Source: Veillonellaceae bacterium (GTDB lineage Bacteria > Bacillota > Negativicutes > Veillonellales > Negativicoccaceae). Taken from it: a stretch of 64,000 nt of DNA. Under the pieces are notes generated by a model. That model made no database searches, was not told the DNA's origin, and was given only the letters and a program-made list of their open reading frames with translations. Location: the NCBI GenBank assembly GCA_022771805.1, contig JALELM010000002.1:117524-181523 (forward strand), written 5' to 3'. Shown here piece after piece: positions 50,459 to 53,941 of the stretch (positions within the stretch are counted from its first letter, which is position 1; every line of letters starts with the position of its first letter). The position numbers were made by a program, and so were the translations under genes.

Positions 50459-50495
50459 TAAAAAAACTCGCTCTGCGGAGCGAGTTTTTTTATTA
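50456..50495. terminator. Bidirectional terminator spanning both convergent stop codons
   Basis: A perfect 18-bp stem (50456-50473 with 50478-50495) with a TGCG loop. Its two outer ends are themselves the TAA stop codons of the BASS gene (plus) and the AEC gene (minus). Confidence 0.95.
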
Positions 50496-51464
50496 CCACA
50501 TCGGCAGCGGAAACAGATACCGTGCCAGAAAAATCACCGTCGTCAGCGTCAGACAACTGACGACAAAGCCCATCATAACCACTTGGGTGGCAAAACCCGG
50601 ATAGTTATCGAATTCAACGGCAAACATTACGCTGTTGACCGCGCTCGGTACGGCGGAGAAGATAAAGAAGACTTGCGCCATCAGCGGCGTGAACCCGCCG
50701 TAGATATAGATGATCAGCAGCGCAAACAGCGGCCCGCCGATCAGGCGGCAAACAATGGCAAGCCAGACGTCCGGGTTCAGCCAGGTCAATTGCGTTCGGT
50801 GCAATTGGATGCCGAGGATCAGCATGGCGATAAAGGGCAGACAGACGGCGGGCATCTCGAGCATATGCCAGACAAACCAGCGATCGACCGGGATGGCAAA
50901 ATACTTGCAGAAGACGACCAGCCCGAGCACATACGGCACCGGCATTCGCGCGATCATCAGCACGGCATCGCGCGGCGTCATCCGTCCCCGCCCCGCCAGG
51001 TACAGACCGACCGTATTGACGGACGTATTCATCAGGATCAGGAGTACCGTGATGCCCGCCATAGCCAAATTGTAATACGGCCGGACTCCGTCATGAACAA
51101 ACGGAGCGCCGGAATAAATCAATGCGATCATGGAAACGCCGACATTGCCGCAATTGTTGAACATGGTTCCCACGCGGAACGCTTCCGTCATGCCGCTGTC
51201 GTAGTCGCGGATCTTCGCGATGATGCTTGTCAGCACGGCATGCAGGGAAAAGAGCACGATGCCGGCAAGAAACAGCTGCACCAAGTCGAAAGACAGGTGT
51301 GTGGCGAAAATGCTCCGAAAGACAAAGGCAGGTAAGATCAGGTAAAATACAATTCGTGTCAGGGATTTGACATCCATGGGAAACAGACTGTCCAGCCAAT
51401 ACCCCATCGCGGCCACGCCGAAAAGAGGCAACATATCAAAGACCAAAATATGAATGAATTCCAT
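50493..51464 (-). CDS. AEC-family (auxin efflux carrier) transporter
   Basis: A 323-residue membrane protein of about ten segments. FYLILPAFVFRSI and FNNCGNVGVSM are characteristic of the AEC family, which includes malate/malonate and other organic-acid transporters. The substrate is unknown. It converges with the BASS gene at a shared terminator and has AGGAGATGAGAAG upstream of its ATG. Confidence 0.88.
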   Translation of the reverse strand: MEFIHILVFDMLPLFGVAAMGYWLDSLFPMDVKSLTRIVFYLILPAFVFRSIFATHLSFDLVQLFLAGIVLFSLHAVLTSIIAKIRDYDSGMTEAFRVGTMFNNCGNVGVSMIALIYSGAPFVHDGVRPYYNLAMAGITVLLILMNTSVNTVGLYLAGRGRMTPRDAVLMIARMPVPYVLGLVVFCKYFAIPVDRWFVWHMLEMPAVCLPFIAMLILGIQLHRTQLTWLNPDVWLAIVCRLIGGPLFALLIIYIYGGFTPLMAQVFFIFSAVPSAVNSVMFAVEFDNYPGFATQVVMMGFVVSCLTLTTVIFLARYLFPLPMW

Positions 51465-51651: not shown

Positions 51652-52710
51652 TTGCAACGCAAAGAAACTTTGTTGCGCTTGACGGAAGAACGGCGGTATG
51701 CGGCGCCGCAGCAGTGGCAGGTGCCGCTGCTGCCGAGCATTCGCGCGGCGATGCGCGCCGTGCTGGACGGCGCGCCCGCACCGACACCGGCTGCGGTACG
51801 CGAAGCGATTGCGGCTTCATACCGAGCCTGCGGCGCGGATATTGCCGCGGCGGCCGTTCGCCTGGGTGTGCGCACTTGGGATTTGGCGGCGTTGGCGGCG
51901 GAGCAAACCGTCGTTGCGCTCAGTCATCCGGGCGATTTGAGCCTGATCTACCCCCATGTCGGTGACGGGCGCACGGGACGGTGGCATCGCGGTTTCTTTC
52001 AGGGTGTGGAATACCTGACCGCTTTCGATGAGATCGATTTCCGCCCGACACTGCCCGTGCACGAGCCGGGGCTTGCGTATCTGGCCTCGCCGAACCCGGC
52101 GACCGGAGTGGTGCTGACGGCGCGGGATATGCTGCGCTGGGTACGCTATGCGGAGCAAACCGGCATGCATATCTGCCACGATGCGAGCCTGTCCGCCTAT
52201 GTCTCGGACGAACCGACGACATTCCTGGCGACACCCGGTGCAACGGCCGTGGTTGCGGAGGTCGTCGATTTGGCGGCGGTCGGCTTGGCGGGCGCAACCT
52301 ACGCAGTCGTTCCGCCGGAGTTGCAGGCGGATGATCGGGACAAGAAACCGCGACCCTACGGCGAATATGTCCATCGCTACTTGGAAGATGCGGAGCCGGC
52401 GCCTGTAGTGTTGGCGGGTATGGCCGCTTGGTACTCCCCGCAGGGGCAGGCCGAGTGGCGGCGGTACTGCACCGCGGTTGCCGCTCGCACGGAGGCTCTG
52501 GGCGCCGCATTCCGGACTGCCGGCGTGGAGGTTTGGGGGAGCCCCGGCGTACCGATTTTATGGACGACGGAAGTCCCGTCCTCGCTGCGCCGTATCTTGG
52601 CAGATGAAAACATTCTTCCGCTGGACGGAGGCCTGTTCGGCCCCGCCGGCGAAGGTTACTTACATTGGCGCGTGACCGTACCGGCCGTGCCCGAAGAGGA
52701 GAATACATGA
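51652..52710 (+). CDS. LL-diaminopimelate aminotransferase (DapL)-like protein lacking the catalytic lysine
   Basis: A 352-residue relative of fold-type I PLP aminotransferases. The middle and end align by eye with DapL: YLASPNPATGVVLTARDML, ICHDASLSAYV, YAVVPPEL, VWGSPGVPILWTT and FGPAGEGYLHWR. Where DapL has SFSKTAGFTGTR, this protein has VVDLAAVGLAGAT (about residues 204-216). No Lys occurs there, and the phosphate-binding Arg is gone too. The N-terminal glycine-rich part is short. The TTG at 51652 has GAGGTG 6 nt upstream; a GTG three codons earlier is possible. TATAAT lies at 51618-51623. It overlaps ychF by 4 nt. Confidence 0.75.
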   Translation: MQRKETLLRLTEERRYAAPQQWQVPLLPSIRAAMRAVLDGAPAPTPAAVREAIAASYRACGADIAAAAVRLGVRTWDLAALAAEQTVVALSHPGDLSLIYPHVGDGRTGRWHRGFFQGVEYLTAFDEIDFRPTLPVHEPGLAYLASPNPATGVVLTARDMLRWVRYAEQTGMHICHDASLSAYVSDEPTTFLATPGATAVVAEVVDLAAVGLAGATYAVVPPELQADDRDKKPRPYGEYVHRYLEDAEPAPVVLAGMAAWYSPQGQAEWRRYCTAVAARTEALGAAFRTAGVEVWGSPGVPILWTTEVPSSLRRILADENILPLDGGLFGPAGEGYLHWRVTVPAVPEEENT

Positions 52711-53813
52711 GCACGAATTTACAAGTAGGCATCGTCGGCTTACCGAATGTCGGCAAGTCGACCCTGTTCAATGCCATCACGAAAGCGGGTGCCGAAGCGG
52801 CGAACTACGCCTTCTGCACGATCGAACCGAATATCGGCGTAGTCGATTTGCCCGATCCCCGCTTGGATACCTTGCAGGAAATGTTTCAGTCGAAACGGAA
52901 ATTGCCGGCGGCAATGCGTTTTGTCGATATTGCCGGATTGGTCGCGGGCGCTTCGAAGGGAGAAGGCCTCGGCAACCAATTCCTCGCCCATATTCGCGAG
53001 ACGGATGCGATAGCGCAAGTCGTCCGCTGCTTTGAGGATGAAAACATCACGCATGTGGCGGGCAGCATCGATCCGCTGCGCGATATCGAGATCATTATGA
53101 CCGAGCTGTGTCTGGCGGATCTGGAAGCGGTCGAAAAACGCACGCAACGTCTGGAGAAAATCGCCCGCTCCGGGAATAAGGAAGCAAAAGCGGAGTTGGC
53201 CGTTTTGGAGAAAGTGCTGCCGCTGCTGCAGGAAGCCAAGCCGGCACGACTGGCGGAGCTCGGCGAGGAGGAAGAAGCGCTGCTGCGCGAACTGAACCTG
53301 CTCACCCGCAAGCCCGTGCTGTATGTCGCAAATGTCGGCGAAGATGAGATTGCGGATCCGTTGCAGAACCCGCATGTGCGTGCCGTAGCGGATTTGGCGG
53401 CATCGGAAGGGGCGGAATGGGTGCCGATCTCCGCGGCGATCGAAGCGGAAATCGCGGAGCTGGAGCCGGAGGAAGCGTCTCTCTTTTTGGCGGAAATCGG
53501 CGAAGAAGAACCCGGTCTGGATCGGCTCATCAAAGCCGCCTATTCGCTGCTGGGACTGATCAACTACTTCACGGCGGGCGAGCAGGAAGCGCGCGCCTGG
53601 ACGATCGTGCGAGGCACGAAAGCACCGCAGGCTGCGGGAAAAATCCACAGCGATATGGAACGCGGTTTCATTCGGGCGGAGATTGTTTCCTACGACGCGC
53701 TGATCCGAGCCGGCTCCATGGCGAAAGCTCGTGAGCAGGGCCTCTTGCGTTTGGAAGGCAAGGACTATGTCATGCAGGACGGCGATGTTACCTATTTCCG
53801 TTTCAATGTTTGA
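52707..53813 (+). CDS. ychF: Ribosome-binding ATPase YchF
   Basis: A 368-residue Obg-family P-loop protein that prefers ATP over GTP and binds ribosomes. G1 is GLPNVGKST, the NKxD position is altered as usual for YchF, and a C-terminal TGS domain is present. YAFCTIEPNIGVVDLPDPRL is a hallmark. The ATG at 52707 forms an ATGA overlap with the DapL-like gene, so the two are translationally coupled. Confidence 0.96.
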   Translation: MSTNLQVGIVGLPNVGKSTLFNAITKAGAEAANYAFCTIEPNIGVVDLPDPRLDTLQEMFQSKRKLPAAMRFVDIAGLVAGASKGEGLGNQFLAHIRETDAIAQVVRCFEDENITHVAGSIDPLRDIEIIMTELCLADLEAVEKRTQRLEKIARSGNKEAKAELAVLEKVLPLLQEAKPARLAELGEEEEALLRELNLLTRKPVLYVANVGEDEIADPLQNPHVRAVADLAASEGAEWVPISAAIEAEIAELEPEEASLFLAEIGEEEPGLDRLIKAAYSLLGLINYFTAGEQEARAWTIVRGTKAPQAAGKIHSDMERGFIRAEIVSYDALIRAGSMAKAREQGLLRLEGKDYVMQDGDVTYFRFNV

Positions 53814-53865: not shown

Positions 53866-53941
53866 GCGCCCATAGCTCAGGGGATAGAGCAGCGGTTTCC
53901 TAAACCGCGTGTCGGATGTTCGAATCATCTTGGGCGCACCA
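53866..53941 (+). tRNA. tRNA-Arg (anticodon CCU)
   Basis: A 76-nt cloverleaf. The acceptor stem GCGCCCA pairs fully with TGGGCGC and the encoded end is ACCA. The anticodon arm GCGGT-TTCCTAA-ACCGC places CCT at 34-36, reading AGG. The T arm has TTCGAAT. The next gene begins 18 nt downstream, so the tRNA and gltD-like mRNA are probably one precursor. Confidence 0.97.

Follow-up and report, generated by a model that had tools for sequence, protein, structure and literature searches.

To our knowledge, few cases have been seen in bacteria of an enzyme dependent on pyridoxal 5'-phosphate (PLP) that persists after its cofactor site is lost. Two described groups come close to this situation, namely LCB1/SPTLC1, a retained relative of a PLP enzyme without the catalytic lysine, and the MocR/GabR/PdxR-type regulators, which put the aminotransferase fold to a non-metabolic role, bind PLP and have a domain for DNA binding at the N-terminus. 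The closest described system is LL-diaminopimelate aminotransferase (DapL, EC 2.6.1.83, TIGR03542), a homodimeric enzyme of about 410 amino acids that transaminates THDP to LL-diaminopimelate (LL-DAP). Its active-site residues in V. spinosum are listed, in an excerpt of PMC7113581, as I43, G44, Y74, E77, K111, Y134, N189, N294 and R390, and its function has been assayed by complementing E. coli dap auxotrophs (abstract of PMC3102117). In the Arabidopsis enzyme, the DapL fold persists without the Schiff-base lysine in the variants K270Q and K270N (3eia, 3ei8), presented in the entry titles as complexes with L-Glu or LL-DAP, in external aldimine form. Here, we report on a gene located at 51652..52710 on the plus strand of a 64,000-nucleotide stretch of DNA (hereafter the window; contig JALELM010000002.1, positions 117,524 to 181,523, assembly GCA_022771805.1) from a Veillonellaceae bacterium of the GTDB family Negativicoccaceae, whose product is predicted to be a pseudoenzyme descended from DapL.

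The window protein departs from each of these systems in its own way. With 352 amino acids it is shorter than DapL, its N-terminal arm and active-site loops being reduced, and it has no equivalent of the Schiff-base lysine, of K111, N189, Y74 and E77 or of the Arg eight residues after the lysine, R(+8), in contrast to the engineered single change of the Arabidopsis variants. It resembles LCB1/SPTLC1 in lacking the lysine but belongs to another family, and the four genomes of the window's GTDB family yielded no sister subunit of its own protein family that bears the lysine (distant fold-type I proteins are present). A non-metabolic role, which we infer for the window protein, would bring it near the MocR/GabR-type regulators; unlike them, it has no extra N-terminal domain and no Pfam domain. 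Indeed, no Pfam match was obtained up to E 1, PF00155 included, while 7 of 12 family members match PF00155 within an E-value limit of 10 (lowest 1.9e-8; E-values only, the gathering cut-off being 19.7 bits). Homology to DapL is nonetheless real. TIGR03542 matches the window protein with E 1e-24 and 87.2 bits, short of the equivalog cut-off of 364.7 bits, versus 576.2 bits for a DapL of a sister family (L007), and among proteins of solved structure, DapLs and the DapL-like ALD1 match best. An earlier note on this DNA had confined the likeness to the second half of the protein, which is too narrow, since phmmer matches residues 53-341 to 6oxm (E 1.9e-19) and profile-profile comparison with DapL spans 317 columns (probability 99.9%, E 5e-36). 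By these comparisons, the window protein falls under the DapL-type fold.

Three protein searches yielded nine clusters of this family, P0001 (the window protein itself) to P0009, with 135 member sequences in P0008 and 23 in P0009; P0010-P0013 are ordinary lysine-bearing aminotransferases and were left out. The resulting set of 12 sequences (window, three further loci and P0002-P0009; 32-95% identical, with 57 of the 66 pairs below 50%) was aligned with 54 DapLs from elsewhere in the order and compared at 14 cofactor or substrate columns. Eleven of these columns are lost in every family member and just one, an Asp, is retained in all 12. The Schiff-base lysine is missing throughout the family and present in 53 of the 54 DapLs, R(+8) occurs in none of the former and all of the latter, and the N189 column is Asn in 54/54 DapLs and 0/12 family members. 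Equivalents of I43, G44, Y74, E77, K111, Y134 and N294 are likewise absent from the 12 sequences, as is the Tyr at position +3 from the ring Asp; the Ser that precedes the lysine is left in one of them and the C-terminal Arg (R390 equivalent) in three, its place being taken by His in the window protein. More broadly, among 122 columns invariant in 53 DapLs (the one from genome G006 excluded), the family has lost 68 in all 12 members, is mixed at 35 and has kept 19 in all.

The same picture is found along the plus strand of the window. LASPNPATG (52081..52107) stands in the place of the DapL motif SPNNPTG, with Pro at the second Asn (N189), and VVDLAAVGLAGAT (52261..52299) occupies the place of FRSxSKTAGFTGxR with its K and R columns empty, the SxSK.AGFTGxR block having become VDLA-AVGLAGA. 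CHDAS (52174..52188) contains the sole cofactor residue retained, an Asp (12/12 family members and 54/54 DapLs) which we take to be the ligand of the PLP ring nitrogen in the aminotransferase fold. The missing lysine and nearby arginine and the altered SPNPATG motif, all pointed out in the earlier note, are thus borne out, whereas the extent of the loss had been understated: hardly anything of the cofactor and substrate site is left. Because the lysine and almost all other cofactor-holding residues of DapL are missing, no enzyme activity is predicted, and to judge by this site loss the window protein probably neither binds PLP nor catalyzes transamination.

A PLP enzyme that would use a different lysine has one candidate residue, K4, which is invariant in the 12 sequences, new to the family and aligned beside the N-terminal arm Tyr of DapL. 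No convincing replacement was found among these sequences, though: residues 1-10 of the structure model have a mean pLDDT of 44, so that K4 sits in a low-confidence stretch, the remaining lysine columns hold Lys in at most four of the 12 sequences, and both the phosphate-site K111 and the R(+8) columns are empty. We regard such an enzyme as extremely improbable. Among the 54 DapLs, losses at the compared columns are confined to a single protein, from genome G006 of the sister family f2, which lacks G44, Y74, N294 and the lysine. The G006 protein (L018 1435-2667; TIGR03542, 499.8 bits) is a full-length DapL of 411 amino acids in which Glu replaces the Schiff-base lysine and another 13 positions that do not vary among the other 53 DapLs are changed; neither meso-diaminopimelate dehydrogenase (Ddh) nor a PF14805-type DapD was found in that genome. 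From its residues, we read this DapL as a second, separate and less advanced inactivation.

The pseudoenzyme gene is present as one intact copy, at the same locus, in all four genomes (G000-G003) of the window's GTDB family, which are 95% (G000) and 99% (the other three) complete. All 12 family sequences are open frames of 341-356 codons, and a scan of two short peptide patterns over genome contigs returned one locus, in Negativicoccus massiliensis. Sequencing error and a decaying singleton are ruled out by the four genomes together with the nine database clusters, and a mobile origin by the plasmid matches (four records), which are annotated DapLs at 24-26% identity. A duplicate beside a true DapL is ruled out too, as no second DapL match (E <= 1e-5) was found in the four genomes, where no lysine-bearing DapL was detected either; in G000, the other five class I/II aminotransferases that were scanned all fall below the DapL cut-offs (one protein each from G001 and G002 was also scanned). 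Within the class, 380 genomes were searched with at most five candidates scored per genome: the four family genomes score at E 3e-153 or lower, and among the matches listed the other 376 genomes get no lower than 1e-50. The lysine is retained in all 12 DapLs inspected outside the order, and this gap in E-values sets the family, by sequence, apart from ordinary DapL.

Purifying selection is evident in the pair G002 and G003, where 20 of 769 nonsynonymous and 40 of 254 synonymous sites differ (pN/pS 0.165, p 2e-12); the gene evolves fast yet under purifying selection in this testable pair. Moreover, the 12 sequences agree completely at 43 columns, counting the start Met, and 25 residues are both near-invariant (11 or 12 of 12) and different from the f2 majority, so that decay alone is not enough. 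These data bear on the possibility of a slowly decaying relic, retained because its frame leads the ribosome onto the next gene, ychF. Strong divergence, an ATGA overlap and a locus shared with ychF would suit such a relic, as would the broken (G022) or undetected (G023, G032) dapL of other genomes of the order. However, selection on the frame alone would not preserve amino acids, and the 12 open frames, the low pN/pS, the invariant columns and the new residues all speak for preservation of the protein; in addition, the overlap gives way to a 19-base gap in G002. We therefore consider the relic unlikely. The conserved DapL-derived pseudoenzyme put forward in the earlier note, for which conservation of the lysine loss and a test for a true dapL elsewhere in the genome had been named as checks, is supported on both counts.

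The locus itself points to the origin of the gene. In the window, the pseudoenzyme gene starts with TTG and runs over 352 codons plus TGA, its start being that of the database copy P0001 and the column from which its relatives align. It is followed on the same strand by an ordinary ychF (52707..53813; TIGR00092, 499.5 bits against a cut-off of 279.2), whose ATG (52707-52709) overlaps the TGA (52708-52710) to form the ATGA already reported for this intact gene. A tRNA gene found with Rfam (53866-53938) comes directly after ychF, and a divergent gene named from its sequence as an AEC-type permease (50493..51464, minus strand) lies upstream, next to the pseudoenzyme gene in all four family genomes. 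No promoter site was found upstream of the pseudoenzyme gene and no RNA element near its start, where the fold is no better than that of shuffles (z +1.5) and Rfam gives only the downstream tRNA. The order permease - pseudoenzyme - ychF - gltD-like - MFS-like (names by reading) is shared by the four family loci, while the spacing to ychF varies (-4 in the window, -1 in G001, +19 in G002 and G003, with a purine-rich stretch before ychF in the gap of G002).

Lysine-bearing dapL occupies the same position in the sister families, directly upstream of ychF and on the same strand in 12/12 loci of f2 (gaps -4 to 94) and 12/14 loci of f3 (gaps 13 to 25). The two genes are separated by ddh in the other two f3 loci (G018, G024) and in several loci of f4, and in three more f3 genomes dapL is either broken or gave no match. 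Among the 28 f4 loci, one has the direct arrangement, five have ychF 1.1-1.8 kb off and 22 have no ychF in the examined flank, although for one of these (G046) a longer stretch shows it at a distance of about 1.7 kb; none of the 12 loci sampled outside the order has ychF near DapL within stretches of 4.4-6 kb. Since ordinary dapL adjoins ychF in f2 and f3, the link to ychF is ancestral, and the pseudoenzyme gene is most simply dapL itself, altered in place, the positional heir of the true gene. The tree agrees, with the 12 family sequences forming one clade (100/100) joined to f2 (98/96). The family stem measures 5.1 changes per column and carries a long-branch joining warning, and in a reduced tree with only two family rows the join to f2 is not starred; as this join is prone to long-branch effects, descent is also argued from position and shared motifs.

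Thus, the pairing with ychF, proposed earlier as a novel functional coupling, exists in 4/4 family genomes but is not peculiar to the pseudoenzyme: it is inherited from lysine-bearing dapL, and the 4-base overlap is not conserved. The direct adjacency remains the argument for a protein working with YchF, for instance as a translation-linked regulator. Given that ordinary dapL is equally adjacent in f2 and f3 and that YchF shows no unusual divergence (83-85% identity), we find this very unlikely. Several observations were made alongside. The dapL-ddh-ychF order of several f4 loci recurs in L101 and L103, with a second gene for diaminopimelate (DAP) synthesis in the same place. In G022 (C4:83034-83998), a dapL match lies in two pieces, open frames of 336 and 257 amino acids that meet within 3 bases, and Ddh was not found in this genome. 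No DapL match was obtained in G023 (89% complete) and G032 (87% complete); Ddh is present in the former and was not found in the latter.

Regarding the DAP pathway, Ddh is encoded in 4/4 family genomes and in 40 of the 61 genomes of the order. According to an excerpt of PMC4176475, Ddh makes meso-DAP in one step, and its presence in all four family genomes would render DapL dispensable. No LL-DAP-making enzyme was detected in these four among the enzyme families searched: DapH_N was found in none of 10 genomes, the family's four included, and PF14805-type DapD in none of 14, DapC, DapE and other DapD types not having been searched for. DapB and DapF were each found in 10/10 genomes. In the family, DapF (L079 4456-5370 in G000, L142, L143, L144) keeps both Cys motifs and has CGNA or CGNV where the four DapFs sampled from other families have CGNG. 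In G005, which has both DapL and Ddh, DAP epimerase matches fall in two short frames (C1:492114-492919; 123 and 188 amino acids), as if dapF were split.

What the retained protein does can be approached from where its conservation lies. In an exploratory comparison, conservation has shifted off the active-site face, the cleft face having lost the most. One possible reading is that the cleft was rebuilt as a new PLP-independent ligand-binding or catalytic site around D177, H137-E138, R165, W163 and new Trp residues; the near-invariant polar and aromatic residues, some of them new to the family (E138, R165, W22, W269, W295), and the Asp retained at the PLP ring position would fit, whereas several of these residues point away from the cleft by fold rule and the cleft face is the one that lost most conservation, which leaves this reading doubtful. 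The protein could also be the inactive partner of a different fold-type I PLP enzyme in a hetero-oligomer, a part that LCB1/SPTLC1 plays in serine palmitoyltransferase. Such an arrangement has a precedent in hLCB1, which works with hLCB2 without a PLP lysine (excerpt of PMC3794620), and would find candidate partners in the five class I/II aminotransferase-type proteins that G000 encodes besides a GlyA-like one. The lack of a second DapL-family match in any of the four genomes and the loss of Y74, E77 and N294, which in DapL reach across to the other subunit of the dimer, make it a shade less probable than the relic.

We rather favor, with about an even chance of being right, a predicted PLP-free pseudoenzyme descended from DapL and retained for binding other proteins, as a scaffold or regulator. 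With meso-DAP coming from Ddh, selection for catalysis by DapL would have lapsed, the active-site loops would then have been deleted, and the remaining large domain would have come under new selection. Conservation has moved to the back of the large domain, on the side facing away from the old cleft (LPxHEP, DEIDF, WVRYAxQTG), which is therefore the likely working surface. Candidate partners are DapF and Ddh first and YchF second: DapF because it, too, persists although no source of LL-DAP is known, and because its CGNG has become CGNA or CGNV, YchF as the weaker one because its adjacency is inherited. The title of the entry holding chain 9a7o_B, an integrative model of GpsB-DapX by crosslinking mass spectrometry, hints that an aminotransferase-fold protein can bind a GpsB protein; no paper on GpsB-DapX was found in the open-licence literature.

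Several points weigh against this explanation. The selection test covers one species pair, the only one close enough, in which the pN/pS of the pseudoenzyme gene exceeds those of all genes compared (ychF 0.027, permease 0.112, ddh 0.090, two other aminotransferases 0.108 and 0.102) except dapF (0.221). The protein is only 35-40% identical between family genera, against 83-85% for YchF, while in f2 DapL and YchF reach 66-83% and 73-89% (9 of 12 genomes, the near-identical pair G012/G014 excluded); relaxed constraint is hence part of the picture. Three of the 12 family members still have the C-terminal Arg in place. Ddh and lysine-bearing DapL occur together in five genomes of f2 and in all 28 of f4, so that Ddh alone permits DapL loss without forcing it. 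For the scaffold step, the surface comparison used faces hand-picked by fold rule, without coordinates, and the structure model leans to the DapL fold because 13 of the 23 rows of its alignment are DapL.

More speculatively, and we think it rather unlikely in this full form, the whole bacterial family could have converted DapL, after the Ddh takeover, to a cofactor-free regulator that remains in the DAP/cell-wall branch and would bind DapF, Ddh or YchF by the back of its large domain and tie precursor supply to growth. No description of a DapL pseudoenzyme, of a Negativicoccus DapL or of dapL with ychF was found in the open-licence literature. To annotate the gene as DapL would be a mistake of some consequence, since the enzyme has been put forward as a target for narrow-spectrum antibacterials (title of PMC4176475). 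Finally, one order holds at one conserved locus a working relative, the by-pass enzyme Ddh, a dismantled descendant and, in G006, a separate and less advanced apparent inactivation, which should allow the route from enzyme to pseudoenzyme to be put in order and examined by experiment.
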